From Sulfuricurvum sp. (GTDB taxonomy: Bacteria > Campylobacterota > Campylobacteria > Campylobacterales > Sulfurimonadaceae): a stretch of 64,000 nucleotides of DNA. This document shows, one piece after another, positions 2,098 through 43,530 of the stretch; the first letter of the stretch is position 1; the number at the start of each line of letters is the position of its first letter. The position numbers and the translations under genes were made by a program. Location: positions 1-64,000 of the forward strand of contig NZ_JAQTNN010000017.1 of assembly GCF_028713855.1 (NCBI RefSeq), read 5' to 3'. The notes under the pieces were generated by a model. The model worked only from the letters and a program-made list of their open reading frames with translations, was not told the DNA's origin and did no database searches.

Positions 2098-2122
2098 TAT
2101 GTTCCCCTTTTGTAACTCTAAG

Positions 2123-2151
2123 TATAATATAATCACGTTAACTTAAACCAA
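2123..2151. promoter_or_regulatory. Divergent promoter region, TPR operon / ppk
   Basis: On the minus strand TTGGTT (2146-2151) and TATTAT (2124-2129) are separated by 16 bases, a reasonable sigma-70 promoter for the TPR-NYN-Nif3 operon. The same stretch reads TATAATATAAT on the plus strand (2123-2133), which could be the -10 of ppk without an obvious -35 box. The sites overlap, so the two directions probably compete. Seen by eye only. Confidence 0.5.
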
Positions 2152-2166
2152 AAATCGGTAGAAACT

Positions 2167-4266: not shown

Positions 4267-4277
4267 TAAGGATATCG

Positions 4278-4814
4278 ATGCTTGGTAATTATTTACACTA
4301 CACCCCTGAAATGAAAGAACGCGTTTGGATCGCAGATTCCGCTGACGTAATCGGACGGGTAAGAATGGGGGAAGATGTGAGTATCTGGTTCGGATGTGTT
4401 GTACGTGCAGATGTACACACCATCACAATCGGCGATCGCAGCAATATCCAAGATTTAAGTATGGTTCACGTTACCCACTATAAACTTAGCGATATGAGCG
4501 ACGGATATCCAACCATCATCGGCAATGATGTGACGGTAGGACACCGTGTTATGCTCCATGGGTGTACAATCGAAGATGCATGTTTGATCGGTATGAGCGC
4601 AACCATCCTCGATGGAGCCGTGATCGGAAAAGAGTCGATCGTTGGTGCAGGTGCACTGGTGACCAAAAACAAAGTATTTCCACCCCGTTCACTTATCATG
4701 GGGAGCCCCGCTAAAGTAGTCAGAGAGCTCACCGATGAAGAGGTCGCAGAGCTTTACGCATCCGCTAAGCGTTACGTGAGCTTCAAAGAAAACTATCGCG
4801 TGCCTAATGTTTGA
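4278..4814 (+). CDS. Gamma-class carbonic anhydrase family protein (YrdA/PaaY type)
   Basis: 178 aa left-handed beta-helix protein with hexapeptide repeats through its whole length (for example VIGRVRMGEDVSIWFG). Three metal-binding histidines are in the expected places: MVHVTH, and VGHRVMLHG with two. Members bind Zn or Fe and some hydrate CO2, while others have no proven activity. It lies downstream of ppk and overlaps the TRIC-like gene by eight bases. A beta-class enzyme two genes further on suggests a shared theme of bicarbonate supply, which is inference. Confidence 0.9.
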   Translation: MLGNYLHYTPEMKERVWIADSADVIGRVRMGEDVSIWFGCVVRADVHTITIGDRSNIQDLSMVHVTHYKLSDMSDGYPTIIGNDVTVGHRVMLHGCTIEDACLIGMSATILDGAVIGKESIVGAGALVTKNKVFPPRSLIMGSPAKVVRELTDEEVAELYASAKRYVSFKENYRVPNV

Positions 4815-5424
4815 TATCGTCATTGCTGCCGATATTCTCGGAATTTGTGCCTTTGCTCTGAGCGGATTTTTGGTCGGGGTACGCAACAACCTCGATCTTC
4901 TCGGTTTAATTATCTCCGCTTCATTGACGGCTCTTGGCGGCGGTGTCGTTCGAGATGTTCTTTTGGGACGAACCCCGTTTGCCTTTAATGAATACTATCC
5001 GGCTATTACGGTCATCACCACAATCCTGCTTGCTTTCGCTTTTCGCCTTTACCGCCGTGAGCAGTTAGAACGCCAATGGCTGTTTGTCATCAGCGATACG
5101 ATCGGGCTTGTCGCATTTAGTATCACAGGGGCCCTGCTAGCCATCGAGGTTGAATTCAACTTTTTCGGGGTTATGATCCTTAGCTTTCTCACCGCCGTCG
5201 GCGGAGGGGTATTACGCGATACAATGATCAACCAAGTCCCCTCGGTCCTTATCAGTGACTTTTACGGCTCAATCGCTATTATCGTTTCTGTTTTACTCCT
5301 TCTCTTGGCACAAATGGATATGGTAAATACCTGGGGAGTCGCCGGCGTTGCAGGATTTGCAATCTTTTTACGGCTCCTTGCTTATTATAAGCAATGGCAT
5401 CTCCCTACACTCAATACGGATTAA
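4807..5424 (+). CDS. TRIC-type cation channel family membrane protein (YadS/UPF0126)
   Basis: 205 aa inner-membrane protein with about seven hydrophobic segments. It has the family's internal duplication: each half carries a glycine-rich kink followed by an arginine-aspartate pair, GGGVVRDVLL near residue 45 and GGGVLRDTMI near residue 137. Prokaryotic TRIC proteins form trimeric K+/cation channels; many members were earlier called UPF0126. The start codon lies inside the end of the carbonic anhydrase gene (ATG at 4807), so it is probably translationally coupled. Its ion is not predictable from sequence. Confidence 0.85.
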   Translation: MFDIVIAADILGICAFALSGFLVGVRNNLDLLGLIISASLTALGGGVVRDVLLGRTPFAFNEYYPAITVITTILLAFAFRLYRREQLERQWLFVISDTIGLVAFSITGALLAIEVEFNFFGVMILSFLTAVGGGVLRDTMINQVPSVLISDFYGSIAIIVSVLLLLLAQMDMVNTWGVAGVAGFAIFLRLLAYYKQWHLPTLNTD

Positions 5425-29637: not shown

Positions 29638-31611
29638 TTAAAACGCTTCAAAATTATAATAAGTGATACGATTACGCCCCATCTCTTTGGAACGGTACAT
29701 AGCTGCATCGGCATGACGGATAAGAATATCAATTTCCTCACAATCATCCGGAAATAACGTTGCACCGATACTGACACCGATATTTATCGTAATCCCATCA
29801 ACCTCGATTGGCTCTTTCAAAGCATCGAGAATACGCATCAGTAACTCATGAGCGGCTTCAATACTTATATCACTTAGGAGAATGACAAATTCATCCCCTC
29901 CGATACGGGCGATGATATCACTTTGACGTAACTGCTGCGCTAAGCGTGCTCCGGCTTGTTTTAATATTCGGTCTCCCATCGCATGACCGTAACCGTCGTT
30001 TACCTGTTTGAAACCATCTAAATCCAAAAAGGCTACGATGGCTTTAGACCCTTTACGTTTGGAAAATGCCAACATTTGTTCTGCTAATATCATATACATA
30101 TGACGGTTAGGGAGGTTGGTCAACGGATCATAATTAACCAGCCGATGCAGCTGTTCTTCCTGTTTTTTATGTTCCGTAATATCGCTGAAAATACCGATAA
30201 AATTTTCAATCTCTCCCGTAATGTTACGTACGGCATCGATGCGTAAAAATTCAGCGTATTCCTGCCCGCCTTTTTTCTTGTTCCAAATTTCACCGCGCCA
30301 TGATCCATCCCGCTCGAGCGCCTGATCCATTAACGCATAAAAAAACTGGCTATGTCGTCCGGAACGCAATATCAAAGGCTTTTGTCCAATAACATCATCT
30401 CTTGTATACTCAGTCAATGTACAAAAAGCTTCATTAACATCGATAATGATCTTATTGGCATCGGTTATAACAATTCCCTCTCTAGAATTATGGAAAACGC
30501 TGGCAATCCGTCTGAGATATTTTTGAGCCTCCTCACGGATAGCTATTTGTTCCTCCAAGGCTTGTGATTCCGATTTGAGGGTGATGGTCAGTTTTCGTAA
30601 TCTACGTGCAAAAAAAAGCAATATTGCAATCATTACACCTAATGAGATAATAATCATCAATGCATATTTTCGTATAACATCATTTATGGTAAAGACAGGG
30701 GCTTTGTCAAAGGGGGTCACTCTCATGTCTTCCATAAGGGCACGTATCCCTTCGTATGCAAGCGGGATATTCCAACCGTAATAACCTGCTGTTTTGGGTA
30801 TTTCAGAACCTCGTGGAAGGCTGAGCAATGCAATCGCCACCTGATTGGCCAACTCCGGATCCGTCTCTTTAAACGCGACAAACGGCCACTCCGGAAAGAG
30901 TTGAGTAGAAAGAGCCTGAGGAAAGTTTGCAATTTTTTGCGGGTTGATAATTTTAAAATCATCTCGGTTGACTTTCCCCTCTTTAGCCATTTTTTCCAAC
31001 ACACCTGTACGGATAAATCCTGCATCCGCTGAACCGCTCTCAACAATATAGACGACTTTATCATGAGGCATATCAGTAAATATCACTCTGTCATCGTGGG
31101 TAACATCAATTCCCTTCGTTAATAACAGACTGCTTTGCGCTAAATACCCCCCCAACGATAGCTGATCGACTGCCGCAATATTTTTATTTTTTAGGTCTTC
31201 CCAACCCGTTATATCTTTTCGATCACTTCGGGCGATAATCACCCCTCCAAACTCTTTTAGCTCATTACCACCCACATTGGCTCGGATCAGGGTAGCGATC
31301 CTTGTAGCGTTATATTTAACGGAGAAGTAAACGTAATGTTCCGGATTGGTAAAGGCGAAATCAAGCTCTTTTTTGGCAACGGCATCGTTAAATTCTTTGT
31401 AGCTTAGTGGTCTGATAGTAAAAGTGCGGGAAGGTATTTGTTTGTTTAAATAGTGGGTGAGCGGAATCCATTCGTTTAGCGTATCTTGTTTGGAACGAAA
31501 GGCCAAAATACCAATCACCACTTGGTGTTTATCCGCCGAAGCGGATACGGCATACAAGGGAAAAAAAAGGGCTATTAGAATAAAAACAACATTAAGAATA
31601 ACTTTGTTCAT
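29638..31611 (-). CDS. Diguanylate cyclase with PhnD-like sensor and PAS domain
   Basis: 657 aa from the ATG at 31611 (GAGGTATAAG before it; the TTG four codons earlier is less likely). Order: signal peptide/anchor (about 4-22); periplasmic PhnD-type binding domain (about 30-295: VVIGILAFRSKQ, FAFTNPEHYVYFS); membrane helix (about 315-338); PAS domain (about 365-490); GGDEF domain with IARIGGDEFVILL. An RQSD I-site lies five residues before GGDEF, so product inhibition by c-di-GMP is likely. PhnD-type domains bind phosphonate/phosphite-like oxyanions. Position after the sox block suggests sensing of a sulfur or phosphorus oxyanion, which is inference. Confidence 0.88.
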   Translation of the reverse strand: MNKVILNVVFILIALFFPLYAVSASADKHQVVIGILAFRSKQDTLNEWIPLTHYLNKQIPSRTFTIRPLSYKEFNDAVAKKELDFAFTNPEHYVYFSVKYNATRIATLIRANVGGNELKEFGGVIIARSDRKDITGWEDLKNKNIAAVDQLSLGGYLAQSSLLLTKGIDVTHDDRVIFTDMPHDKVVYIVESGSADAGFIRTGVLEKMAKEGKVNRDDFKIINPQKIANFPQALSTQLFPEWPFVAFKETDPELANQVAIALLSLPRGSEIPKTAGYYGWNIPLAYEGIRALMEDMRVTPFDKAPVFTINDVIRKYALMIIISLGVMIAILLFFARRLRKLTITLKSESQALEEQIAIREEAQKYLRRIASVFHNSREGIVITDANKIIIDVNEAFCTLTEYTRDDVIGQKPLILRSGRHSQFFYALMDQALERDGSWRGEIWNKKKGGQEYAEFLRIDAVRNITGEIENFIGIFSDITEHKKQEEQLHRLVNYDPLTNLPNRHMYMILAEQMLAFSKRKGSKAIVAFLDLDGFKQVNDGYGHAMGDRILKQAGARLAQQLRQSDIIARIGGDEFVILLSDISIEAAHELLMRILDALKEPIEVDGITINIGVSIGATLFPDDCEEIDILIRHADAAMYRSKEMGRNRITYYNFEAF

Positions 31612-31631
31612 CTTATACCTCAATTAGAGAC

Positions 31632-31667: not shown

Positions 31668-32579
31668 TTATTCTATCGTGCTTTGAAGCACACCTTCAAA
31701 ATCTTTTTGTGCTTGCAGCAACACCGATTTGGCTTCCGCATCCTCAACGCGGGCACTGCTCATCCAGTTATAGACACCGGGGAATCCCATAACGATTTCG
31801 CCTGCATCTTTTTTCTTATACACCATCAACGTACACGGAGCGAATGCCGCCGCTTCCGGACGGGTTTTTGCTACGGTGTAAATCACTTTTAGTTTACAAA
31901 TAGAGTAGGTATCGTAAAAATCAAACGGACTCTCTTCACCATTTTCAGTCAACATAAACTGATAGTCGGTAAAGTTGGAAAGGACAAATCCGGCAGGCTT
32001 TAGCCCTTCTTCGATCATCATCTCCGCATCGTCTTTATCACTCTTCCAGTTGTTAACATCAATCTTCTTCACAAATCGGGTGACCAATTTTCCCTCTGCA
32101 GGTAAAGAAGTACCACTCAAGGCATGCTTCGTTGCTTTAGGAAGGACTGTTTTCAAGGTAGCAAACACCTCTTTTTCGATTTTAGTGAACTCAGGAGCTT
32201 TAAAGCCGGCGATTTTTTTCATCGCATCGGCAGTCAATACGGATACGTGCAAATCACTCTCACCTTTACGCTGATAGATGCCGACTCCCATCGGGACAAA
32301 AACACCGCCGTCCGGATGCGATTTGACTAGAGAAGCCGCTTCTTTTTTAGGGATGACCGTCATCAAGTTAAAGACAGTAAAATCACTGCCGCCGAACTGT
32401 TTGGTAAACGGTCCTGTCATCTCCGTGTCCGCAGAGATCACGAAGCCATTGGCTTCAAATGCCTTTTCAATCATCGCAGGGGTAATTTTACCATCAGCAT
32501 TAGGGGCGCTAAAAAGGTGTAAATCACCTCCAAAAAGGGATAAAAATCCCGCTAAAACTACAAGTATAATTGCTTTCAT
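31668..32579 (-). CDS. Periplasmic protein with two DUF302 domains
   Basis: 303 aa from the ATG at 32579 after AAGGAGTCAACC; a longer frame adds 15 unlikely residues. A Sec signal peptide (MKAIILVVLAGFLSLFGG) is followed by two DUF302 units, about residues 60-150 and 200-295, each with the pattern FTVFNLMTVIPK...VGIYQR or YSICKLKVIYTVAK...LMVYKK. DUF302 proteins are small alpha/beta proteins of unknown function often found with sulfur oxidation or heme genes. Cysteines are seen in SICK and APCTL of the second unit only. It follows the DsrE gene by 11 bases. Confidence 0.85.
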   Translation of the reverse strand: MKAIILVVLAGFLSLFGGDLHLFSAPNADGKITPAMIEKAFEANGFVISADTEMTGPFTKQFGGSDFTVFNLMTVIPKKEAASLVKSHPDGGVFVPMGVGIYQRKGESDLHVSVLTADAMKKIAGFKAPEFTKIEKEVFATLKTVLPKATKHALSGTSLPAEGKLVTRFVKKIDVNNWKSDKDDAEMMIEEGLKPAGFVLSNFTDYQFMLTENGEESPFDFYDTYSICKLKVIYTVAKTRPEAAAFAPCTLMVYKKKDAGEIVMGFPGVYNWMSSARVEDAEAKSVLLQAQKDFEGVLQSTIE

Positions 32580-32589
32580 GGTTGACTCC

Positions 32590-33024
32590 TTAGGGTTGAA
32601 TATAAAATGCGCCGTCATGCGCACGCTCTATAACTTCCGCGATACCGGCACTGACAATTTCGACATCTTCGATCAATGCGGAAGCGGGAATTTTCTTCGT
32701 CTCCATCGTATTGCCACAGGCAACGAATTCGACACCGTATTGCTGTAACGCACGAACGCGAACCGCAATATCTTTTTCATCTTTGAGCAATGTCCGGATA
32801 CCGTGATAATAGGCGACTATGCGGATATGTACTTTCTCAGGGCCGTAAAATTTGAGTACATTGTTTGCGGTGCTTAGACCGTGGTTAATCGACTCATCAT
32901 CCCCCTGACTGATCCCCATCACCACTTCACGCGGTTTTTCCATGCTAGGGATCGGTTCGGAGAGTCTAACATCCGCACTTAAAAACGATGATGCTAAAAG
33001 AACTATCAAGGCAATACGTTTCAT
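32590..33024 (-). CDS. Periplasmic DsrE/DsrF-like protein
   Basis: 144 aa from the ATG at 33024 (GGGAGTGATA before it). Residues 1-17 form a Sec signal peptide, so the protein is exported, unlike the cytoplasmic DsrE/TusD sulfur carriers. The fold signature is seen in NNVLKFYGPEKVHIRIVAYYHGIRTLL and in VEFVACGNTMETKKI, which holds the single conserved cysteine. A role in binding or transferring sulfane sulfur near the Sox proteins is plausible but not shown. The start overlaps the metallohydrolase stop (TGATAATG). Confidence 0.82.
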   Translation of the reverse strand: MKRIALIVLLASSFLSADVRLSEPIPSMEKPREVVMGISQGDDESINHGLSTANNVLKFYGPEKVHIRIVAYYHGIRTLLKDEKDIAVRVRALQQYGVEFVACGNTMETKKIPASALIEDVEIVSAGIAEVIERAHDGAFYIQP

Positions 33025-33026
33025 TA

Positions 33027-33935
33027 TCACTCCCATTCTAATACTCGATAAGATGCTTCAACATTTCCGCTTTGCATCGCATCGTATAGTTTATATTTTT
33101 GATATTCTACCATCTGAACTTTTTTAATCGTCTCATCAATCCCCAATCCGGATTCGATCGCAAAGCGGATTTCGGAACGCATTTGAGTGAGATATTCATG
33201 GGTCATTTTGGAACTGTTTTTATCGGTATTTCGACCATGTCCGCCGATCACATGCAATGCGCCCATCGCTTCAAGCTCTTCAAGTGTGGTAATCCAGCCG
33301 TTGATATTACCCCCTTTTACTGAGGGCAAACGATCATTAAAGACTAAATCACCGGCAAACAGCACTCCCAATTTGGGTAGATATACGACCAAATCTTTAG
33401 CAGTATGTGCCGTACGGGAGATAAGTTTGAGTTCAATATCCTGATTGCCGACCTTTTTACGGGTGCTTTCCAAAATAATCTCGGTAGGAAGTGTCGATAC
33501 GGTACCCTCATATGCGGCAGGGGAGATAGTATTTTGCATTCGCGTCGCTTCATGCACATTCACATTATGCAAAAAGTCATCCGAACCCACAACACTAACC
33601 CCGTTTTGGGTAAAAAATCCGTTTCCGAGCCAATGATCGTCATGTATATGGGTATTGATCACCAATTTGACAGGTAAGGGTTTGATGCGCTGCATTGCGT
33701 TATACGCTGATTGCGCATAGGCATACGAGGGACCGGTGTCAACGACCACGTATCCCTCACCTGTATCGATATAACAGCTGTTAACGATGTTGCCGTTGTT
33801 GGTTTTATTCATCACTTCAGGGGCACCGAAAAAACATGTGACATCTGATGTGATACGCTCCGGTTTAAGGGCGTAATCAAACGCACTCAAACTCGTCACA
33901 GCAAAAAATAAAGATCCCAACAACGCTTTCATCAT
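33027..33935 (-). CDS. Exported metallo-beta-lactamase-fold hydrolase (SoxH-like)
   Basis: 302 aa with a Sec signal peptide (MMKALLGSLFFAVTSLSAF). The MBL metal site is complete: THIHDDHWLGNG (HxHxDH), ISRTAHTAKDLVVYL, LFAGDLVFNDRLP (Asp) and IGGHG (His). Similar proteins are encoded in sox operons as SoxH or in quinoprotein clusters; the substrate is unknown, and SoxH is not needed for thiosulfate oxidation in model organisms. It lies between the porin and the DsrE gene. Start at either of two adjacent ATGs. Confidence 0.85.
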   Translation of the reverse strand: MMKALLGSLFFAVTSLSAFDYALKPERITSDVTCFFGAPEVMNKTNNGNIVNSCYIDTGEGYVVVDTGPSYAYAQSAYNAMQRIKPLPVKLVINTHIHDDHWLGNGFFTQNGVSVVGSDDFLHNVNVHEATRMQNTISPAAYEGTVSTLPTEIILESTRKKVGNQDIELKLISRTAHTAKDLVVYLPKLGVLFAGDLVFNDRLPSVKGGNINGWITTLEELEAMGALHVIGGHGRNTDKNSSKMTHEYLTQMRSEIRFAIESGLGIDETIKKVQMVEYQKYKLYDAMQSGNVEASYRVLEWE

Positions 33936-33942
33936 TCAGCCT

Positions 33943-35481
33943 TTAGAAGAGGTAGTTTACTTCGAAACGGTACTCATTGTATGAAGCATAATCAACGGTA
34001 ACCGGTGTCGCTGTCGTCGTTACAGGATCAGCATTAACGGTTGCAAAACGGAATTTAAACTCCGTGTTTGGAAGGGATTTAAAGGTCTGCCATGCATCAA
34101 CGTGGAAAATAGTTCTATCTGAGAATGCACTGGCTCCTGACAACATTTTGGCATCATCAAAGTTCATATCTTCATAATCCGCCGCTACTTTTAATCCCGG
34201 TACGATTCCGGCTTTGCCAAAGTCGTACGTTGCTTTTACAGCCCAGTTTTTAGTGTTTGCAACCCAGTCGACTTGCGCCATTGAACGGGTATATCCTCCC
34301 GTAGGGAATCCACGCCATGGAGCGATGATATCGGCATCATCCGCAATTTTAGAGTATCCTGCTGCCAATTCCAACGGACCGCTAGCCAATACTAAACGTG
34401 CCATAAAAATACTACCGTCAACGCTGGTAGGATTTGTATATGAAGCTCGGCCTGCAGCGCTACCGCCATTGACAGTAACTGCGGCCTTTCCACTTAACGC
34501 AGCTCCACCGATCGCACCCGCGCCGTCATCCATTTGACGTAAATAACGGATACCCGGAGTCAATGTCCAAGAATCGTTTAGTTTGATTTGGTAGTTAGCT
34601 TCAGCAATGGCCGTATTAAAATAGCCGTCCAATCCGATGTATTCACCATTTAATTTCAAGTTCGGAATGGATTTATTCTCCACTGTTACCAAAACCATTT
34701 CCGGATCAGCGTCACCGTTTACTTTAGCAATATTTGCTAGAGTTAATCCTTTATGTGCACCTGAATCATCATTCTCATTGACTTTTGTAAACGAAGTAGT
34801 GCCGTCATACGCAATCACGCTGTGAAAGAGTTGGTGGTCACGAAGTTTTTGGCTCATGATATATCCGGCACGAAGCGCTGTGTTCGGAATATCTTTGTTT
34901 TCAATAACAGCCCCTTCGAAGGTATTAGGAACCATTTTGGTATCATTGGTTGCCAACATCACAGTGTCGATCCCTTGACGACCCACTTTTACATCGGTTT
35001 TACCATTTTTATACTCAAGGTACGCTTCTGCAAAAACACCGATTGCAGCTTCAGAACCGTCCATACGGGTACGGTAGGTATCTTTACCCATTTTACCGAA
35101 GTTGGTATTGGCTACTGCAGGGTCAGTATTTTCACTGTCCATAGGAATTGTTCCGTAAAATCCTGCTGTTGCCCCAAAACCATGGAAAAATCCGGTTTTA
35201 TAAACTAAACTTCCGCCAAGACCCCACATGTTATTGTTACGCGTTGGGCTTGATCCAAATTTTTCATTATCCCAGACGTTCCAAAACATGTTTGAACGAA
35301 TACGTCCGTATACTTCACCTTTCGTAAGCATTTCACCAAGTGAATTGACTTCACCAGGAGTTTTAAGATAATCAACTTGATAATTTCCCAAAAGATTACG
35401 ATCTTCTGTTTTAAGCGCATACGCCGACGTAGTCAATAAACAAGCAGCAGCTGCTGCAATACTCATTTTAATCATTTTCAT
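33943..35481 (-). CDS. Outer-membrane porin, OprD-like (Campylobacterota type)
   Basis: 512 aa. Signal peptide MKMIKMSIAAAAACLLTTSAYA, cleaved near residue 22. The rest alternates hydrophobic and polar residues in beta-hairpins and ends in the aromatic EYRFEVNYLF, typical of an outer-membrane barrel. Recognisable segments: MLTKGEVYGRIRSNMFW, KTDVKVGRQGIDT and LNGEYIGLDGYFN. Related OprD-type porins take up small anions or amino acids. Position directly after soxB suggests a thiosulfate or sulfate channel, an inference. AAGGAGTTAAG precedes the ATG. Confidence 0.85.
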   Translation of the reverse strand: MKMIKMSIAAAAACLLTTSAYALKTEDRNLLGNYQVDYLKTPGEVNSLGEMLTKGEVYGRIRSNMFWNVWDNEKFGSSPTRNNNMWGLGGSLVYKTGFFHGFGATAGFYGTIPMDSENTDPAVANTNFGKMGKDTYRTRMDGSEAAIGVFAEAYLEYKNGKTDVKVGRQGIDTVMLATNDTKMVPNTFEGAVIENKDIPNTALRAGYIMSQKLRDHQLFHSVIAYDGTTSFTKVNENDDSGAHKGLTLANIAKVNGDADPEMVLVTVENKSIPNLKLNGEYIGLDGYFNTAIAEANYQIKLNDSWTLTPGIRYLRQMDDGAGAIGGAALSGKAAVTVNGGSAAGRASYTNPTSVDGSIFMARLVLASGPLELAAGYSKIADDADIIAPWRGFPTGGYTRSMAQVDWVANTKNWAVKATYDFGKAGIVPGLKVAADYEDMNFDDAKMLSGASAFSDRTIFHVDAWQTFKSLPNTEFKFRFATVNADPVTTTATPVTVDYASYNEYRFEVNYLF

Positions 35482-35514: not shown

Positions 35515-37281
35515 TTAGCAGCCCTTTGAACCTTTACGAGGACAACCGCAGTCATAATCGAGGATATCCACATTGCTGTGACCGTCGATATTGACATTCT
35601 TTTGACGTCGGATGTACGATGCCGTCACATCATAAACCGGGCGCGTCAGAGAATCTCTTAGGTTGGTTCCTGCATTTTGCAAATTACCGCCCCATGAAGA
35701 GACTTTGTAGGTTTTGTTATCATCCAAAGGTTTCCCTTTGACTAAGATATTACTGATACGTTTTCCGCTTGGTGCACCGATTTTGATACTGTACGTTACA
35801 CCGCCCAAACGGCTCATATCTCCCCCTTGCTGGTACAGAGGATTCGGGTTGAAGACGTTATCGGCTATGTCTTCGAGAAGTGAACGGATATGTTTTCCAC
35901 TCAATTCAAACGTGTAGACATTAGGATAGGTAATCGCCGTCATATCATAAACGCTGTCCATAGTGATCGTGTCACCGCCGAGAACGGTTGTTCCCCAGCG
36001 ATATCCCGGAGTAAACGAAATATCTGAATCCATCGTATCAATGATCGCATCATTGATAAGTTCATCGAACGGAGAATGGAACGTATCGCGTTTGTACAAG
36101 ATATTTTTTGTCACACCGAGCACTTCACTGAATTCTTTCTCATGCGGAGCATAGAGAGAATTGACCAAATCAACCCCTTCAGGATCGGCTGGAATCAAGT
36201 TCGCCGCTACAGGGATCAGTTTATACTCATACCCTTTAACACGGTGGTTTTGGATGTCGATATCCAAACGCCCGATATATTTACCGTGGCTTCCCGCGAT
36301 CACGATCACCGTACCGTTGATAACCGTCGGCTGTGGAGATGGATCATGCGTATGCCCACTGAGGATAAAATCGATCCCCTTGACTTGGCGCGCAACCTCT
36401 TGGTCAACACTGAAACCGTCATGCGACAATACGACGACACAATCCACTTTTTCTTCTTTGCGAAGTTTGTCCACATACGTTTGAAGCGTATCCAAACGAA
36501 GACCGAAACTCCACCCCTGGGTAAACTCTTTCGGGTTTGCCGTCGAAGTAAACGGAAACGACTGACCGATAATACCGATCTTCGCACCGCCGCGCTCCAT
36601 AATCGTATACGGTTTGAAAATCAACTCTTCAAAATCATCGGCAAATGAATCGTCACCGATAATATTTTGAGAGATAAACGTCGCGTTGAGCATCTCGATC
36701 AGCTCTTTAACCCGTGTTTTACCGTACGTAAACTCCCAGTGACCGACCATAACGTCTACACCGAGATAGTTTTGCGCTTTAACGATCGCTTCACCGGTTG
36801 TTTTGAGTGCCAATCCGGTACCTTGCCAGGTATCGCCCGAATCGAGCAACATGACATTGTCCGCACCGCGCTCTTTTTTGATATGGTTGATGAGGGTTTT
36901 CATATGGGCGATCCCCCCCATTTTTCCGAATTTATGTGCCAACGCATCAAAATTCATATGGGTATCGAAATAAGCATCAAGTGTTTTGCCCTTCATCCCA
37001 TAATGTTTCAAAAACGATTCACCGCACAAAAATCCCGGTGTTCCGGTGAGATTCGGCGCTGAAATCAGTGTCGAAGGCTCACGCCAGTACAACGGTTTGA
37101 TATGGGCATGCATGTCACAGATATGCAACAACGTCACATTTCCGCGAGCATTAAAAGAATAAATATCTTTTAATCCTACCTCATCCGCCCGTTTAGGTGT
37201 CGAAGCAGCTGATCCAAGGGTCGGCATACCGATTCCTAATGCAGCGGCAATGTGGAAAAAATCTCTACGTGATACGTCCAT
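35515..37281 (-). CDS. soxB: Thiosulfohydrolase SoxB
   Basis: 588 aa. It hydrolyses the terminal sulfone from SoxY-bound cysteine-S-thiosulfonate, releasing sulfate, in the periplasm. The N-terminus MDVSRRDFFHIAAALG is a Tat signal. Dimanganese motifs of the 5'-nucleotidase superfamily: HICDMHAH, LLDSGDTWQG, GHWEFTYG, VLSHDGFS and SGHTHDPSP. The C-terminal domain includes NDAIIDTMDSDISFTPGYRWG. The last residues, DCGCPRKGSKGC, are cysteine-rich. GGGGGAGAAAG precedes the ATG, 11 bases after soxA. Confidence 0.97.
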   Translation of the reverse strand: MDVSRRDFFHIAAALGIGMPTLGSAASTPKRADEVGLKDIYSFNARGNVTLLHICDMHAHIKPLYWREPSTLISAPNLTGTPGFLCGESFLKHYGMKGKTLDAYFDTHMNFDALAHKFGKMGGIAHMKTLINHIKKERGADNVMLLDSGDTWQGTGLALKTTGEAIVKAQNYLGVDVMVGHWEFTYGKTRVKELIEMLNATFISQNIIGDDSFADDFEELIFKPYTIMERGGAKIGIIGQSFPFTSTANPKEFTQGWSFGLRLDTLQTYVDKLRKEEKVDCVVVLSHDGFSVDQEVARQVKGIDFILSGHTHDPSPQPTVINGTVIVIAGSHGKYIGRLDIDIQNHRVKGYEYKLIPVAANLIPADPEGVDLVNSLYAPHEKEFSEVLGVTKNILYKRDTFHSPFDELINDAIIDTMDSDISFTPGYRWGTTVLGGDTITMDSVYDMTAITYPNVYTFELSGKHIRSLLEDIADNVFNPNPLYQQGGDMSRLGGVTYSIKIGAPSGKRISNILVKGKPLDDNKTYKVSSWGGNLQNAGTNLRDSLTRPVYDVTASYIRRQKNVNIDGHSNVDILDYDCGCPRKGSKGC

Positions 37282-37292
37282 CTTTCTCCCCC

Positions 37293-38060
37293 TTAGCGTT
37301 TCAAGCCCGGGATTTGAATCTCGTTGCCTTTGGTTTTGTTGGTAACATAGACTTCAAGCGCTACCATCTCACGCGAACCGAGAGGGATTTTGGCTAACAG
37401 CGCATTTTCCATACATTGCTGAAAACGTTTATCCAATGTTACCATCTGACTTTGCGTCATACGATATGCCGGCCATGTTCCGCCCGCTTTATTCACACCC
37501 AAATCCGGAAGCGGCTGCATACGCAAACGTTGACCTATAACATCCGCACTGTGACAACTGTTGCACGAAAGTCCCCGTCCGCCACGGCGTTGTTCAAATA
37601 CCTCTTGACCGAGAGCCATCATCTCTTTCATTTGAGTGTCACTTTTAACATCAATAGAAGTTTTTTGACCGTTTGCCAACGATTTCACGTACGCCGACAT
37701 TTTGACAATCTCGTTACTTTCCAATTTTGGAACGCTTTGTCCACGATCTGACATCACCATTTGAAGCGTTTGTGCGATCGTTACCACTTTACCTGCCGCT
37801 TTGACGACACGTGGAAATCCGGCAAGGTATTTCGGAAGATCTTTCTCTTTGACCCCTAACATTTGAGCGTAAGCCGCATTACCGATAAGACGGTTAAACA
37901 TCTCTTCGCCTTCAGAAACATCCATCGCTGCAGGATTGTTTTCAAGCATTTCGGCATACATTGCTTTATCGGCATCGCTCATGCTCAATTTTTCTTCAGC
38001 ATTGGCATTGCTCAAAAGTGCCAGAGTAATCAATGCGGCACTTATAGATAGATTACGCAT
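37293..38060 (-). CDS. soxA: SoxA, diheme-family cytochrome c with one visible heme site
   Basis: 255 aa. With SoxX it links thiosulfate oxidatively to SoxY cysteine. Sec signal peptide MRNLSISAALITLALLSNANA. Only one CxxCH is seen, CNSCH near residue 165, followed by the SoxA pattern GTWPAYRMTQSQM and the cysteine ligand/active-site region RFQQCMENAL. SoxA proteins occur in one-heme and two-heme forms; this is the one-heme form. CCAAAAGGATAAATC gives a clear ribosome site at the SoxZ stop. Confidence 0.95.
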   Translation of the reverse strand: MRNLSISAALITLALLSNANAEEKLSMSDADKAMYAEMLENNPAAMDVSEGEEMFNRLIGNAAYAQMLGVKEKDLPKYLAGFPRVVKAAGKVVTIAQTLQMVMSDRGQSVPKLESNEIVKMSAYVKSLANGQKTSIDVKSDTQMKEMMALGQEVFEQRRGGRGLSCNSCHSADVIGQRLRMQPLPDLGVNKAGGTWPAYRMTQSQMVTLDKRFQQCMENALLAKIPLGSREMVALEVYVTNKTKGNEIQIPGLKR

Positions 38061-38063
38061 GAT

Positions 38064-38390
38064 TTATCCTTTTGGAGTAATTTGTTCGCTACTCTCGACG
38101 CTTTGCCCTTTGTTATCTTTGGCAATTACTTTGAGGGTTCCCGCACCCGATACTTTAAAACTGATACTCATCAACGGGTTGACTGACAATGATTCCCAAA
38201 TGATCATTTTTGTAATCAACTGATCGTTGAACATAAATTTCACTTCATCGATATAATTTGCAGGAATAATCTCTCCCGTATCTTTGTTTTTACGCATACC
38301 GGTTTCCATCGGGTGCATTGCCATAAAGTCCACTTTTACGACGTCCCCGACTTTATACTCTTTCGGTTTGATTTTTATCAATGTTTTCAT
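38064..38390 (-). CDS. soxZ: Sulfur carrier complex subunit SoxZ
   Basis: 108 aa, Ig-like fold, no signal peptide; it is exported bound to SoxY by the Tat route. Typical residues: IKIKPKEYKVGDVVKVDFMAMHPMETG and the ending VESSEQITPKG. It forms the SoxYZ heterodimer that carries the sulfur intermediates. AAAGGACTAATATT precedes the ATG. The gene is 54 bases from soxY, and that gap shows no clear element. Confidence 0.95.
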   Translation of the reverse strand: MKTLIKIKPKEYKVGDVVKVDFMAMHPMETGMRKNKDTGEIIPANYIDEVKFMFNDQLITKMIIWESLSVNPLMSISFKVSGAGTLKVIAKDNKGQSVESSEQITPKG

Positions 38391-38444: not shown

Positions 38445-38918
38445 TCAACCGCATCCGCCGATGGTTACTTTGACATTTTGCTTTGCACTCAAGAACGTTC
38501 CATCGCTCATTTCTGCAATCGCAACCACATCCTGAGTTCCTCCGAGTTTTACCCGTGTACCGAAATACGCTTCCCCGTTAGCCGGAGTGAGATAAATATT
38601 TGCACATCGGACATTTCCGTTTTTAGACGCCAATACATGAATCGCTTTGACATAATCTTTATTTGTCATTGGGCTCTCAACCGTTACTTTAACAGGAACA
38701 ACCGCACCGTTTTCCGCAATTTCAGGTGCAGAAATAGCTACTTTAGCCGAAGGAGTTACCGGTTTTCCTCCTGTAATCGCCGCCACTGCCGAATCGTAGT
38801 TCATCTCATTAGGACCTACAACTTTTTTTGCTTCCTCAGCCGCGTTAGCGATTTGAGGGATAAGTGCCGTACATGCGGCTACAACTCCAAATCCTTTTAA
38901 AAATGATCTGCGTTCCAT
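38445..38918 (-). CDS. soxY: Sulfur carrier protein SoxY
   Basis: 157 aa. Tat signal peptide with MERRSFLKGFGVVAA (RRSFLK). The C-terminus VTIGGCG is the swinging arm whose cysteine (residue 156) holds the thiosulfate-derived intermediates. The middle domain has the Ig-like SoxY pattern ENGAVVPVKVTVESPM. It is the central substrate carrier of the periplasmic Sox pathway. Confidence 0.97.
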   Translation of the reverse strand: MERRSFLKGFGVVAACTALIPQIANAAEEAKKVVGPNEMNYDSAVAAITGGKPVTPSAKVAISAPEIAENGAVVPVKVTVESPMTNKDYVKAIHVLASKNGNVRCANIYLTPANGEAYFGTRVKLGGTQDVVAIAEMSDGTFLSAKQNVKVTIGGCG

Positions 38919-38934: not shown

Positions 38935-39453
38935 TTATTTTTTTGATACGATATAAGAGGTCAAATCACACACTTCACGCTCATTCATCAAACCGTTAGT
39001 CATATTAATCGTCATGTGTGTAGTCGGATTATCGACACGGGCATCCGCTATTTTTTGATACACAAACTCATGTTTTCGTGCACCGCTATCCACATACAGC
39101 CCTTTATAGTTGCTCAAATCAGGACCGATGTTGCCGTATCCTTTAGCCCCTTCGATATTGTGACAGGCGACACAGTTACCGAATTGTTTCTCTTTTCCGT
39201 CGGGAAGGATTTTGACCAACCCTTCAGGAGCAGGATCTTTAGCATCTTTTCCATTTAAATTATGAAAAATATATTTACCTCGTGCAATAGCAGCGGGATC
39301 TTCACTGATACACCCCTCAGGCATTACAAAACTTTTTGCTGCAGGAAGGGCATCTTTTTTCAAAATGGCCGTCGCATCGGGACTTTCAATTACTGACGAA
39401 AGATCCGCCGCTCCCAAAAGGGTGGCGATTCCAAGCATGATTGCTATTCGCAT
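38935..39453 (-). CDS. soxX: Cytochrome c SoxX
   Basis: 172 aa. Sec signal peptide (MRIAIMLGIATLLGAA). One heme site CVACH at residues 94-98 and a distal methionine candidate in NPTTHMTINM. GNIGPDLSNYKGLYVDS is typical of SoxX. It takes electrons from SoxA in the SoxAX complex. It is the first gene of soxXYZAB, preceded by AAGGAGAGCCA, and 77 bases after the histidine kinase stop. Confidence 0.94.
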   Translation of the reverse strand: MRIAIMLGIATLLGAADLSSVIESPDATAILKKDALPAAKSFVMPEGCISEDPAAIARGKYIFHNLNGKDAKDPAPEGLVKILPDGKEKQFGNCVACHNIEGAKGYGNIGPDLSNYKGLYVDSGARKHEFVYQKIADARVDNPTTHMTINMTNGLMNEREVCDLTSYIVSKK

Positions 39454-39483
39454 TGGCTCTCCTTATTCTAATGTTCGCTTAGC

Positions 39484-39489
39484 ATTGTA
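39484..39489 (-). promoter_or_regulatory. Possible -10 box of the sox operon
   Basis: TACAAT on the minus strand 31 bases before soxX. Upstream is an A/T-rich tract with two TTTACA-like boxes at unsuitable spacing, so -35 recognition may need an activator such as the adjacent response regulator. The short gap cannot exclude read-through from the kinase gene. Confidence 0.4.
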
Positions 39490-39529
39490 AAGGAGGAGTG
39501 TAAAATTAATGTAAAAAAAGGGGGGTAAA

Positions 39530-40696
39530 TTATTCGCCAATGAAGACAGGGGGGTAAAAAGTATACGAAAAGGTGCTCCCTTTACCGTAAACAGAATCGA
39601 TTTTCAGCTCAATGCCCGCTTTGTCAATAATGGATTTAACGATATTCAGTCCGATACCGAATCCCCCTTTATCGCGGTTTTCTCGATAATAACGTTCGAA
39701 AATACGGTTTACGTCTTCAATTCCGACACCGTCATCTTGAAAACGCATCACGCATTTCTCTTCAGAGTGTTCCAATATCACTTCGATTTTCCCCTCTTCA
39801 TGGGAATATTTAATCGCATTGGAAAGATTATTGTCGATGATGCGCTGCAACTGTGTCGGATTAAACAGTATAAAAATACCGTCTTCGATATGGGGAAGAA
39901 TTGTAATATTTTTCAAAGCTGCTACTTCCGAAAAATAATCAATCCGATCCTGCAAATAATGACTCAACTCAATCCGCTCATACTCAAATGCCAAACGCTC
40001 ATTTTTGATCAGATAATCCATATCGTTATAGAGGGTTGCTAATGTTTTTGTGGCCGCCTTGATTCGCTGAAGGTATTTGTTTTGCGGATTGGCACGATGG
40101 TAGAGATCGATATTGACATTAATAATAGATAGCGGCGTATTGATTTCGTGCATCGAATCTTTAATAAACTGATCGAGACGTTTATTGATCCGCTGAAACG
40201 GAAGGGCGAAGCGATCCAGAAAAAAGAGGGAAAGGATAAAAATAAGGGCGGCAATAGAGAGGAGGATAATCACGACATCCTGATAAATCCGTGCATACGA
40301 CAGCTCTCCCCCCACTACGAGATACGATGCCTGAAAATAACGCTCTTCCGGAAGCGCCACGATCAAATAGGCATACCCGTTCTGCACATGATAACCCGAT
40401 TCTTGAGTTTCCAGTGGAGTATGAATGAGGGTAAAAACAGGCTTAAAATGTTCATCGTACAACCCTGACTGAAACGACCGGAACCGAGGGTAATCAAAGG
40501 CTCGTTTCTCTTTGGGGTCGAACTCTTCCATCGCACGCAAAATTAGATGCGATTGGTGCTTAAGCTTGAACTCATACTGTATCTCATAGACGTATTTCAT
40601 GTAGGTAACGTACAGATACGTCGGAACCAGCAGCAATACTGCCACGAGCATCGTATAGATAAAGGCATTTTTGAGAGCGTAGCGATTATCGTTCAA
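39530..40696 (-). CDS. Sensor histidine kinase next to the sox operon
   Basis: 388 aa. TM helices near residues 10-32 and 142-162 flank a ~110-residue periplasmic domain. The H-box is DSMHEINTPLSIINVN with the phospho-accepting histidine, N-box IDNNLSNAIKYS, and G-boxes DDGVGIEDVNRIFERYY and GGFGIGLNIVK. No HAMP is obvious. The start is TTG overlapping the response regulator stop by 11 bases. It transfers phosphate to the neighbouring regulator and is transcribed towards soxX. The ligand is unknown. Confidence 0.87.
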   Translation of the reverse strand: MNDNRYALKNAFIYTMLVAVLLLVPTYLYVTYMKYVYEIQYEFKLKHQSHLILRAMEEFDPKEKRAFDYPRFRSFQSGLYDEHFKPVFTLIHTPLETQESGYHVQNGYAYLIVALPEERYFQASYLVVGGELSYARIYQDVVIILLSIAALIFILSLFFLDRFALPFQRINKRLDQFIKDSMHEINTPLSIINVNIDLYHRANPQNKYLQRIKAATKTLATLYNDMDYLIKNERLAFEYERIELSHYLQDRIDYFSEVAALKNITILPHIEDGIFILFNPTQLQRIIDNNLSNAIKYSHEEGKIEVILEHSEEKCVMRFQDDGVGIEDVNRIFERYYRENRDKGGFGIGLNIVKSIIDKAGIELKIDSVYGKGSTFSYTFYPPVFIGE

Positions 40697-41339
40697 TGAT
40701 GTATCCCAGCCCGCGCCGATTTTGGATGATCTCTATAGGGAGCTTTTTTCGTAAATTATTGATCTGCACCCGTATGTTGGCAGGATCGACATACTCACCC
40801 CAAATCTCGTCTTGAAACATCTCTACCGATACGACTTGATTCGTATGTTTGAGTAACACCGTAAAAATCTCTTTTTCTGTTTTACTCAGAGCGATATTAT
40901 GCCCGTTATGGGTCAAGGTGAAATTTTCGGTGTCGTAAATCAGTTCTGAGCCGAAATCGATTTTATTTTCACCGTCATGATAAAAACTTTTCAGCGCATG
41001 CATAATCCGTATCTGCAATTCGGTCAAATCAAACGGTTTGCGGATATAGTCACAACACCCTGATTTATACCCCTCTTGCAAATCGCTCACATTAACCATC
41101 GAGGTGAGAAAAATGGCCGGAGTTTTATTCCCCTCTTTACGCAGGGTACGGAGCAAATCAAAACCGTTCATTCCCGGGACATTGACATCGAGCAGATAAA
41201 GATCAAAATGGGTCTCATAGATAGCATCAAATGCCTTTTCGCCATTGGAGAATCCGGATACTTCATACCCCATATCCTCTAAAAACTCAGTAATGCTGAT
41301 ACGCAGCATATACTCATCTTCGAGTAACAATACCTTCAT
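40686..41339 (-). CDS. OmpR-family response regulator next to the sox operon
   Basis: 217 aa. Receiver domain: acidic pair in LLLEDEYML, phospho-acceptor aspartate in LYLLDVNVPGMNG, threonine/serine in IFLTSM and lysine in DYIRKPFD. The C-terminal winged helix runs from about residue 130, ending RGLGYIIER. GAGGGGGAGATCCG precedes the ATG, which overlaps the cache gene stop. Probable regulator of soxX and following genes, by position only. Confidence 0.9.
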   Translation of the reverse strand: MKVLLLEDEYMLRISITEFLEDMGYEVSGFSNGEKAFDAIYETHFDLYLLDVNVPGMNGFDLLRTLRKEGNKTPAIFLTSMVNVSDLQEGYKSGCCDYIRKPFDLTELQIRIMHALKSFYHDGENKIDFGSELIYDTENFTLTHNGHNIALSKTEKEIFTVLLKHTNQVVSVEMFQDEIWGEYVDPANIRVQINNLRKKLPIEIIQNRRGLGYIIER

Positions 41340-42466
41340 CGGATCTCCCCCTCTATCTTTTTATTCACTTTATAATCCAACATAATCCCGATCAATTCTT
41401 CTTTGGAATAGTTCTCCAGCCGCTCATGCGCCTCCTGCAAAAACAGTTCACGATCTTCAGGCGCTACCGTATCTTTGAGATAGAGTAAATCTTTATCATA
41501 CACACTTTGAAACAAAGCGTTATCCAGCGATTTTTTAACCATGACATCATAAAGCTCATTTCGGGAAAGATGGATAAGAAATGAGATATCTTCTTCATCC
41601 GAATGCGCATACGTTTTGATCTGCTTCGGCGACAGTGAAAAGACAAAAGCGCCTATTGTCTCCCCCTCACCGTTTTTCATCGGCTCATAAAACAGATAAC
41701 GCCCTCCGCTGAACATAACACGGCTGTGCTTAAGAGTATTAAAATCTATTCCCCCCAGAAGCTTTAGATCACTTTGAGTATATTTGGGATTTGCCAAAAT
41801 ATAATTTTTACCAATGGCAGGATTTTCTTGCATAAAAACAGCCGTTTCATAGAACCGCTCATCCATCAGGATGTACAGATTGATCCCCAAACGATCGAAA
41901 TATTCCTGCGTCGATTCGAAAAACGATACCACCTCCACAAATCCGTTCATTTTATCCTGATGGTAGATCGGAACGGTTGCTTTTACCCCAAGCTTTCGCC
42001 CGACTTCGATCGCCGAACGAGGATTTTTATGGGTTTGAAAATAAAGCAGATCGGGACGATGAAAATCCAGCGGCATCCCTGCATACGAGTTATCCCAACT
42101 GCGGGCAAAAATAATATAATCGGAAGTGATAATCTGAGAGCGGATCAACGAATCGGTGTGAACTTTGATCGACTCCATCCCCTCCGAGAGGATTTTAAAT
42201 CCTTTGTCCTCATCGTCTTGCTCCAACGCGTCACTGAGCGCCGTATTTTGAGAAAGGATTAGGGCGTAACGCAAGGCTGTGGAACGTTCTTTATCGAGTT
42301 GATTGTTCAATGCCAATGAGAGTTGATCGCTCAAACGTTCCAGCGTCTGTGAAGTCACTTTCTTCTCCAACTGCCATAAAACAATCCCCAAAATCATTAT
42401 AATGACCAAAAACACCGCTGCAATTGTCTTTTTATTCGCAAAAAATTGAACCCAGCGATCCATCAC
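41336..42466 (-). CDS. Periplasmic double-cache sensor-like protein without output domain
   Basis: 376 aa. One N-terminal membrane helix (about residues 15-34) is followed by a large extracytoplasmic region: a long helix (LERLSDQLSLALNNQLDKERSTALRYALIL), then two alpha/beta cache-like modules including FARSWDNSYAGMPLDFHRPDLLYFQ and KATVPIYHQDKMNGFVEVVSFF. No second membrane helix, HAMP, kinase, MCP or GGDEF domain is seen. It is coupled by overlap to flhB upstream and the response regulator downstream. It may be an accessory ligand sensor for the kinase. The start is GTG or ATG at 42466/42463. Confidence 0.75.
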   Translation of the reverse strand: MMDRWVQFFANKKTIAAVFLVIIMILGIVLWQLEKKVTSQTLERLSDQLSLALNNQLDKERSTALRYALILSQNTALSDALEQDDEDKGFKILSEGMESIKVHTDSLIRSQIITSDYIIFARSWDNSYAGMPLDFHRPDLLYFQTHKNPRSAIEVGRKLGVKATVPIYHQDKMNGFVEVVSFFESTQEYFDRLGINLYILMDERFYETAVFMQENPAIGKNYILANPKYTQSDLKLLGGIDFNTLKHSRVMFSGGRYLFYEPMKNGEGETIGAFVFSLSPKQIKTYAHSDEEDISFLIHLSRNELYDVMVKKSLDNALFQSVYDKDLLYLKDTVAPEDRELFLQEAHERLENYSKEELIGIMLDYKVNKKIEGEIR

Positions 42467-43530
42467 AGCGTCTCCTTCTTCTTTTTACCCATCTTATAAA
42501 CATATGCCAACACCTCAGCAACTGCGGCAAACATCATATCAGGAATGGCCCGATCAATCTCTACCTCTTTATAAAGAGAACGTGCCAGCGGAGGGTTTTG
42601 AACAATGTGCACTCCGTTTTCACGGGCTATTTTTTTAATCTGAATCGCAATATTATCGACCCCTTTCGCAACCACGACCGGCGCATTATGTTTCGTTTCA
42701 TCATACATAATCGCTACGGCATAGTGCGTTGGATTGGTGATAACCACATCGGCAGTAGGGACAGAGGCCATCATCCGCTTTCGCGCCGCCTGCATCTGAA
42801 TCTGGCGGATTTTTGCCTTGATATGGGGATCTCCTTCCATATTTTTCATCTCATCTTTTATCTCTTGTTTGGACATTTTGAGTTTGTCGAAATATTGTTT
42901 CCGTGTCAGGAGGAGATCGATCATCGCATACACAGTAATGATGATAAGCATGACAGCCGCAAGGACAATCGCTTTGTCTCGGAGCCATCCCATCTGATCT
43001 TGGAGCGTAAACAGAGCAACCGTCGGGAGTTCTTGGATGTAATACCAAAAGAATAGAAAACCGACCCCCAGTGCCGTCAAAGACTTGAGGGTAATTTTAA
43101 TCGATTCGAGCCCTTTTTGGAGGGTGAAAAGATTTCCAAACCCCTTGATCGGATCGATTTTGGAAAAATTCGGCATCAACGGTTTGGTCGTAAAATTAAA
43201 TCCGATTTGCGCTATCGTTCCGGCGATCCCGGCAACAGCCACAACAATACTGATCGGCAATGCCATGATCAAAAACTCCCGAAACGTGATCCACGCCATA
43301 TCAAACATCAGTTCCCGCGTCAACGGCTGTCCAATCAATGAAAAATAATACTGGGATAGTTTCAAAATGCGATCGGTAATGAAGTTGAACATCATCAATA
43401 ACCCTAAAATGGCAACGAATAAAACGAGAACTCCGACGATATCCTGACTTTTGGCAACATTCCCCTCAGCTCGGGCGTCTTCAATCTTCTTGGAGGTGGG
43501 TTCCTCCGTTTTTTCCATATCGTCAGCCAC
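42463..43530 (-). CDS. flhB: Flagellar export switch protein FlhB
   Basis: 355 aa. N-terminal EKTEEPTSKKIEDARAEGNVAKS, four membrane helices (about 30-210), then the cytoplasmic domain with the self-cleavage motif NPTH in VITNPTHYAVAI. It switches substrate specificity of the flagellar type III secretion gate. The start is GTG (43530) a few bases after nadC, with ATG four codons later as alternative. Here it stands alone from other flagellar genes and overlaps the cache gene (TGTGATGG). Confidence 0.96.
   Translation of the reverse strand: MADDMEKTEEPTSKKIEDARAEGNVAKSQDIVGVLVLFVAILGLLMMFNFITDRILKLSQYYFSLIGQPLTRELMFDMAWITFREFLIMALPISIVVAVAGIAGTIAQIGFNFTTKPLMPNFSKIDPIKGFGNLFTLQKGLESIKITLKSLTALGVGFLFFWYYIQELPTVALFTLQDQMGWLRDKAIVLAAVMLIIITVYAMIDLLLTRKQYFDKLKMSKQEIKDEMKNMEGDPHIKAKIRQIQMQAARKRMMASVPTADVVITNPTHYAVAIMYDETKHNAPVVVAKGVDNIAIQIKKIARENGVHIVQNPPLARSLYKEVEIDRAIPDMMFAAVAEVLAYVYKMGKKKKETL

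Follow-up and report, generated by a model that had tools for sequence, protein, structure and literature searches.

A double Cache (dCache) protein with a predicted membrane anchor, an OmpR-type response regulator and a histidine kinase, encoded as one run directly upstream of the sox genes of a Sulfuricurvum sp., form what we judge, with a probability of roughly 0.74, to be a three-component sulfur-anion sensor that activates soxXYZAB. The three genes (the triad) lie in a 64,000-nucleotide stretch of contig NZ_JAQTNN010000017.1 (assembly GCF_028713855.1), the whole of which we call the window. Between the kinase gene and soxX stands a conserved promoter element made of a tandem repeat and a -10 box. 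In window coordinates, the genes and the element are as follows.

41336-42463, minus strand: gene of the dCache_3 (cache) protein, 375 amino acids (Pfam, alignments, structure model, fold matches)
Layout of the dCache_3 protein: dCache domain at about residues 42-278, helical tail at about 279-375, without an output domain (Pfam, alignments, model)
40686-41339, minus strand: gene of the OmpR/PhoB-type response regulator, 217 amino acids (Pfam, family alignment)
39530-40696, minus strand: gene of the HisKA histidine kinase, 388 amino acids, with a TTG start within the regulator gene (Pfam, alignment, model)
39499-39515, minus strand: tandem repeat TTTACA-N5-TTTACA, predicted site of the phosphorylated regulator (conserved alignment)
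39484-39489, minus strand: TACAAT, predicted -10 box of the soxX promoter (9 bases past the repeat)
About 39476-39478, minus strand: predicted soxX transcript start
38935-39453, minus strand: soxX (Cytochrom_C match and conserved gene order)
38445-38918, minus strand: soxY (SoxY Pfam match)
38064-38390, minus strand: soxZ (SoxZ Pfam match)
37293-38060, minus strand: soxA (SoxA-TsdA_cyt-c Pfam match)
35515-37281, minus strand: soxB (5_nucleotid_C and Metallophos matches, conserved order)

The names soxX and soxB rest on Pfam matches, gene order and relatives together. The original prediction described an output-less double-Cache protein, a regulator and a kinase ahead of soxX on one strand, each gene translationally coupled to the next; Pfam and the coordinates confirm the arrangement, and the cache and regulator genes overlap by 4 nucleotides (nt) and the regulator and kinase genes by 11 nt. 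Two details are revised. The cache start, earlier placed at a GTG at 42466, is better assigned to the ATG at 42463, where most orthologues in Sulfuricurvum begin, and the kinase gene ends 76 rather than 77 bases ahead of soxX (39454-39529).

Linkage of the triad to sox was followed in three sets of genomes. An order sample of 149 genomes contained soxB of the window type (60-100% identity) in 25 and a more distant soxB in 19 others. In a family sample of 200 genomes, the cache was called at an E-value of 1e-40 and two more distant soxB genes were set aside. A named set, with one genome per species, comprised the best 80 of 129 relatives found with a 21-cache profile, the closest of which are Sulfuricurvum metagenome-assembled genomes (MAGs) with up to 92% cache identity. 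The named set is biased, having been retrieved through similarity to proteins most of which are linked to sox; the order and family samples were drawn evenly from larger groups.

The idea of a switch for sox was to be given up if the triad lay far from sox in most relatives. The order sample did not bear this out: the triad lies directly upstream of soxX, on one strand, in 19 of the 25 soxB genomes. An insert of 1.7-2.2 kb separates the triad from soxX in G042 and G050, the triad is nearby on the opposite strand in G023, and the contigs of G063 and G141 stop just past the kinase gene. Across the family sample, cache and soxB agree in presence or absence in 184 of the 200 genomes (both in 90, neither in 94, cache only in six, soxB only in ten). 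In all 84 cases with both on one contig, soxB lies downstream of the cache gene and shares its strand, within 5.5 kb in 81 and at about 6.7 kb in three; six genomes carry the two genes on different contigs. Contig ends account for 15 of the 16 discordant genomes: all ten soxB-only contigs end in the regulator gene or between it and soxA, and five of the six cache-only genomes are cut by contig ends too (G160, G294, G334; G249, G197). The one real exception is G187, which was read through the coordinate-matched named locus L107, as G249 and G197 were through L075 and L098.

The kinase gene is followed by soxX within 260 bases in 62 of the 80 named loci; among the remaining 18, 13 reach contig ends and two (L087, L108) have inserts of about 2.5-2.7 kb, two (L118, L143) show no sox gene in the flank read and one (L128) is without regulator and kinase. 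The order cache, regulator, kinase recurs down to about 25% cache identity, and among the 80 named loci 78 of 79 retain the 4-nt overlap and 62 of 78 the 11-nt overlap. In 73 of 78 loci TTG was called as the kinase start, though the start picker favoured ATG, and this start within the regulator gene (window 40686-40696) is perhaps a conserved way to hold the kinase below the regulator. As far as genome comparison goes, then, the gene unit is conserved and is linked to sox; the linkage in the order and family samples led us to reject chance adjacency. In one Sulfurimonas MAG (L128, 11040-11200), a stretch of about 20 regulator codons leads straight into soxX and no kinase gene is present; this locus was dropped as evidence, since a deletion and a misassembly look alike there and the element, too, went with the absent stretch. 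The triad is interrupted, as it rarely is, in L207 (4306-6138), where a gene for a 610-amino-acid protein on the opposite strand stands between regulator and kinase.

Alignment of the kinase-soxX intervals revealed the full element, TTTACA-N5-TTTACA-N9-TAnnnT, which sits where a -35 box would be. The repeat is present with at most one mismatch in all 62 of these named loci (45 exact), compared with 0.7% of dinucleotide shuffles, and, once the window is added, TAnnnT stands exactly 9 bases past the repeat in all 63 (6% in the background). Information peaks at both half-sites and at the -10 box in the 44 dissimilar rows left after thinning. The window element spans 32 bases (39484-39515), and its repeat has no other exact copy in the 64 kb. 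This strongly conserved tandem repeat of the OmpR/PhoB kind falls within 39454-39530, the interval earlier proposed for DNA binding, and a plain promoter scan of the minus strand gave no -35/-10 pair over it.

In PhoB-type activation, the regulator site replaces the -35 box ahead of the -10 box. The TTTACA element is like the PhoB box in its direct half-sites, its 11-base spacing and its place in lieu of a -35 box; it differs in sequence and in signal, and its binding by the regulator is a prediction. Judged by sequence, a direct repeat with a spacing of about 11 bases is conserved at the presumed target promoters of an OmpR-type regulator. A site overlapping a promoter could serve either way, and the regulator might instead repress sox when substrate is absent. 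We consider repression improbable, because the repeat takes the place of the -35 box and ends 9 bases ahead of the -10 box, as in PhoB-type activation.

In the loci compared, the element keeps to soxX. A copy with at most one mismatch is found before soxX despite genes inserted after the triad (L087, L108, L053, L060, L206, L208), with a split triad (L207), with triad and sox on opposite strands (L043) and with the triad on another contig (G258, L203); no copy was found within 3 kb past the moved kinase of L202. The repeat was also considered as part of the 3' end of the kinase gene, and this was rejected because it is kept before soxX after inserts and relocation. A search of the window's own genome for soxC gave matches under the cut-off only, so the comparison with soxCD was made on other genomes. 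None of five soxCD loci has a copy with a -10 box; two hold a one-mismatch repeat on the opposite strand, without a -10 box. This agrees with the separate control of sox clusters in Sulfurovum indicum, where soxABXY1Z1 is higher on thiosulfate and soxCDY2Z2 on sulfur (PMC10045233; here and below, papers are represented by the passages available from them).

To survey other uses of the element, the full pattern was run over 31 genomes of the genus Sulfuricurvum, giving 68 sites compared with 8 for the reversed pattern. Among the 35 sites that were read individually, 20 precede soxX, nine a DsrE/rhodanese operon, five a gene for a 145-amino-acid protein and one a dCache_3 chemoreceptor gene. The operon with the element begins with genes for DsrE, rhodanese and DsrE, to which the window's own genome adds DsbD and thioredoxin. 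At L169 (G000 C2:247500-254500, about 1130-5270), which carries all five genes, a porin gene follows and an ArsR-like gene is divergent; an exact repeat copy with a -10 box precedes the operon, whose first genes and site recur in nine of the 35 sites. The 145-amino-acid protein (L170 3702-4139 and orthologues) has no Pfam match, and the second half-site of its recurring element is often TTAACA. The chemoreceptor (L172 1932-4061), which combines dCache_3 with a zinc-binding CZB domain, has the repeat ahead of it, and in G102 a large protein similar to it follows a repeat copy. The dCache_3 chemoreceptors of these bacteria share the sensor domain of the triad cache, and the G136 copy is preceded by the same repeat; they are fused to a chemotaxis output, whereas the triad cache is output-less with an added C-terminal tail. 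The cache was missing from four of the 31 genomes at an E-value of 1e-40, and two of these (G231, G241) are free of element sites.

Related cassettes adjoin other target genes. In a cytochrome class, full-length caches with about 21-28% identity accompany a regulator with about 53% and a kinase with about 47%, next to multihaem cytochrome genes (L058, L059, L062, L063, L064, L066, L069; by Pfam in L058 only). The C-terminal helix of the regulator is near-identical in these cassettes, and eight of the ten loci that could be tested have an exact repeat after the kinase gene, in most cases ahead of a cytochrome gene. Past the kinase gene of L058, L059 and L063 is a run of genes for multihaem CxxCH proteins, NHL-repeat proteins and PpiC/SurA-type isomerases (by Pfam in L058); the run looks like a cluster for extracellular electron transfer and stands under the same repeat. 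In a DsrE class, a porin gene and a DsrE-like gene precede the cassette where the locus reaches far enough, with a one-mismatch repeat and TAnnnT before the porin gene in six of nine testable loci.

A further group has short caches, mostly of 270-330 residues and without the tail. The 25 loci read, those fetched of about 32 such matches, each carry a regulator and a kinase, and all adjoin either a TsdA-type di-haem cytochrome gene (18) or a PhsA-type molybdoenzyme gene (7). TsdA-type naming follows SoxA-TsdA_cyt-c and Cytochrom_C matches in three loci checked by Pfam (the SoxA model being under its cut-off) and tblastn otherwise. Six PhsA-type enzymes, two of them in TsdA-class loci, score 1040-1123 bits with an NCBIfam cut-off of 694; the model (NF012032) may include polysulfide reductases, and it was scored in four of the seven phs-class loci, the others being named by tblastn. 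The repeat with TAnnnT stands 61-65 bases before phsA in six of ten testable loci, about the distance seen at soxX. It is exact, and 65 bases before phsA, in L257 (9245), L268 (1153), L270 (11328) and L271 (10336), and has one mismatch in L267 and L276. In L257 (2256-4350) the TsdA-linked kinase gene is split, its pieces standing on either side of a transposase-like reading frame.

Trees of 68 rows, from which L257 was omitted for its split kinase, were built for cache and kinase. Each places the five target labels with four changes, which is the minimum (about 39 in shuffles), and the two share mostly the same groups. On these grounds sensor and kinase seem to evolve together, with sulfur as the theme of their targets; their trees are similar and their gene order constant, and contact between the two proteins is proposed. 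We lean, by a narrow measure, towards a Campylobacterota cassette family in which an exchangeable, membrane-anchored and output-less dCache receptor is joined to a conserved regulator and kinase, with Sox, TsdA-type, Phs-type, porin/DsrE and multihaem cytochrome targets and at least four branches (sox, cytochrome, porin/DsrE and phs) sharing the element.

These distributions also bear on whether a different OmpR-type regulator uses the TTTACA repeat, or the repeat is simply a strong constitutive promoter, with the triad placed there by inherited gene order. The regulator is tied to the site by association, and the element occurs in two incomplete genomes in which no cache was found. Such an explanation is nevertheless highly improbable: the triad is kept with sox across many families, soxB and cache co-occur with nearly all exceptions at contig ends, and the related cassettes carry the same repeat beside targets of their own.

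The sensor protein itself belongs to dCache_3 (PF14827; 42.5 bits, cut-off 25.7, residues 42-278). A single N-terminal hydrophobic helix, seen by eye and in the model, predicts a periplasmic protein anchored in the inner membrane; reading the tail by eye gave no second hydrophobic span. The roughly 95 residues past the Cache domain are mostly helical, with model confidence partly low (predicted local distance difference test score, pLDDT, partly below 50), and hold conserved positions in the alignments, including a K354-E-L-I motif. Over the whole model the mean pLDDT is 81.3. Its distal lobe (53-182) is closest to citrate-bound CitA (Z 16.3, 122 aligned, root-mean-square deviation (RMSD) 1.8) and the whole cache domain to DctB (Z 14.6, 209 aligned, RMSD 3.7), both of which bind small organic anions; by sequence, the cache profile matched no solved structure (best E-value 0.21). 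R121, R136 and K161 are invariant in 20 of 20 aligned sox-type caches, and in 11 cytochrome-type caches are retained in 8, 10 and 9, respectively. R156 is kept in 19 of the 20 sox-type caches and is L or V in seven of the 11 cytochrome-type caches; the single DsrE-type cache aligned keeps R156 and has I at position 161. From this pattern, R156 is a candidate ligand-choice residue.

Thiosulfate is the common substrate of Sox, TsdA and PhsA, and across the cassettes this points, with some confidence, to thiosulfate as the cache ligand. The triad could instead regulate sox without sensing thiosulfate, the cache binding an organic acid, an amino acid or another small anion, or reporting the respiratory or redox state, with sox as one of several electron-transfer systems under its control. 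Among solved structures the nearest folds belong to sensors of citrate, dicarboxylates and amino acids, the multihaem cytochrome clade uses the same repeat with no obvious thiosulfate enzyme, and the aligned DsrE-class cache is without K161. A carboxylate sensor would not, however, predict that all 25 short-cache cassettes adjoin TsdA- or PhsA-type genes and that a third class adjoins DsrE-like genes, and we regard a non-thiosulfate signal as rather unlikely. Of the original proposal of a direct switch by thiosulfate or another sulfur compound, the connection to sox is borne out by linkage, and the sulfur ligand is supported by comparison with these cassette neighbours. The related suggestion, that the cache is an accessory ligand-binding subunit, is likewise supported by comparison, as the cache travels with the regulator and kinase.

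The regulator matches Response_reg (91.6 bits) and Trans_reg_C (51.5 bits), the receiver and winged helix of the OmpR/PhoB family; in this protein, which carries the helix ANIRVQINNLRKK, D51 and K101 are invariant in the family alignment rows. The kinase has HisKA and HATPase_c domains by Pfam, as expected of a HisKA histidine kinase, with H183, E184, N289 and N293 invariant in the alignment. Its own sensor domain is modelled as about 100 residues, with a helix at 4-58, five strands within 76-131 and a helix at 135-202.

Taken together, a sulfur-anion switch would operate as follows. A reduced-sulfur anion, thiosulfate being the most likely, would bind in the CitA-like distal lobe of the dCache protein, which would pass its state to the kinase via the small sensor domain of the latter, perhaps through the helical tail. 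The kinase would phosphorylate the OmpR-type regulator, which is predicted to bind TTTACA-N5-TTTACA in place of a -35 box, 9 bases ahead of the -10 box, and to recruit RNA polymerase to soxXYZAB. The DsrE/rhodanese operon of Sulfuricurvum likewise has this element ahead of it. Of this scheme we infer the ligand, the cache-kinase contact, the reading of this element by the regulator, the direction of the phosphorelay and activation over repression.

Several observations weigh against the proposed switch. Some concern linkage: G021 has a lone cache gene on a separate contig and a sox run that begins at a contig edge; G187 (L107) has the triad and soxX without soxYZAB; in L118 (an S. crateris MAG; G258, where the whole triad and sox are on different contigs) and L143, no sox gene lies within the flank read around the triad; and L054 shows no stop separating the kinase from soxX. 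A terminator search ahead of soxX was negative, so read-through into sox is possible. Others concern the element. The link between regulator and element is by association, and G245 and G259 (81% and 93% complete) have elements though no cache was found; these are not at soxX, the sites read standing before the DsrE operon and the 145-amino-acid protein gene. No repeat within one mismatch was found in cytochrome-class loci L065 and L068, DsrE-class loci L182 and L186 or phs loci L269, L272, L274 and L277, none stands before the porin gene in L183, and none precedes the TsdA-type genes in the loci scanned. Finally, the cytochrome class is not clearly sulfur-related, and the fold matches listed for the cache include carboxylate, amino-acid and other sensors and no sulfur-anion sensor.

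Elements of this design are familiar. TorT-TorS-TorR and LuxP-LuxQ combine a kinase with a separate ligand-binding periplasmic partner of the soluble periplasmic-binding-protein fold. The triad is alike in having a separate periplasmic partner, the ligand role of which is predicted; TorT and LuxP are soluble binding proteins, whereas the triad partner is of the dCache fold with a predicted anchor. Among thiosulfate sensors, ThsS has a phosphonate-binding-type sensor domain and ThsR is not known to be of the OmpR type; a Pfam search of the triad kinase at an E-value of 0.1 gave no phosphonate-binding-type domain, which sets it apart from ThsSR and TtrSR. These Shewanella two-component systems respond to thiosulfate and tetrathionate, and ThsSR adjoins the thiosulfate reductase operon that it activates, a likeness in the control of a sulfur-anion pathway (PMC5408782). 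Two proteins suffice for ThsSR and TtrSR in E. coli (PMC5408782), whereas the triad adds a dCache protein and would have Sox as its target. SoxR, an ArsR-type one-component sulfane-sulfur repressor of sox, is reported to be strictly confined to Proteobacteria (PMC10451225). It regulates sox as proposed for the triad, which is an OmpR-type two-component system of Campylobacterota; the triad regulator joins a receiver to Trans_reg_C, unlike the ArsR winged helix without a receiver. In Acidithiobacillus caldus, the two-component systems RsrSR and TspSR lie beside tetH and sox clusters; TspSR is described as sigma-54-dependent, and the available passages mention no stand-alone Cache partner (PMC5093147).

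Two-component systems with a separate periplasmic sensor and thiosulfate two-component sensors (PMC5408782) are thus already known; the triad differs in its output-less, membrane-anchored dCache partner, in its Sox target in Campylobacterota and in its cassette family. Sox occurs in 30.7% of Campylobacterota species (PMC10451225). The available passages of a review of Campylobacterota respiration (PMC6682613) name no sox regulator, nor do those of PMC2147049 and PMC7952632, and among open-licence PubMed Central papers, as far as their available passages go, we found no description of the triad, of a sox regulator in this group or of a stand-alone Cache accessory sensor. The triad is probably the hitherto unreported thiosulfate-oxidation switch of this bacterial group. 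For sulfur oxidisers of vents, redoxclines and groundwater, it offers candidates for the sensor, kinase and regulator, along with a promoter element of 32 bases and its predicted transcript start, and with these parts in hand the question of the switch is directly testable. The cassette family, if true, would be the equivalent of SoxR in Campylobacterota and would sense sulfur anions with a new architecture, and the triad is suggested as a new source of thiosulfate biosensors.

The remaining features of the gene run lie on either side of the triad and sox genes.

42463-43530, minus strand: flhB, running into the cache gene start (next to the triad in most Sulfuricurvum loci)
31668-35481, minus strand: possible remainder of the sox run, four genes
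33943-35481, minus strand: OprD-type porin, possible sox run member
33027-33935, minus strand: SoxH-like metallohydrolase, possible sox run member (match under the NCBIfam cut-off)
32590-33036, minus strand: DsrE-like protein, possible sox run member
31668-32624, minus strand: DUF302 protein, possible sox run member

The full minus-strand order is nadC, flhB, cache, regulator, kinase, soxX, soxY, soxZ, soxA, soxB, porin, SoxH-like, DsrE-like and DUF302. The flhB stop and the cache start share TGATG, with nadC ahead of flhB, and in the genus Sulfuricurvum the triad closes a run of genes that includes nadC and flhB. Because it follows flhB without a gap, the Sulfuricurvum triad is probably made with housekeeping genes, the soxX promoter being left as the switch. 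The overlap with flhB, together with the lack of a detected terminator before soxX, might also mean that the Sulfuricurvum triad belongs with flhB and motility and reaches sox by read-through. This is extremely unlikely: L087 and L088 are without flhB next to the triad, and flhB was not found beside the triad in Sulfurimonas-named loci, where the link to sox stays. For the same reason, a motility unit with flhB was rejected as a general rule. The flhB neighbourhood is not confined to Sulfuricurvum, as flhB adjoins the cache gene divergently in L051 and L053 of another family.

Downstream, in L107 (7149-10852), from a Sulfurimonas MAG, a SoxH-like gene, a porin gene and a DsrE-like gene come straight after soxX. 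Past the sox run of the window, the protein encoded at 29638-31623 combines PAS and GGDEF with a periplasmic domain of the phosphonate-binding type and may be a second small-anion sensor next to sox.

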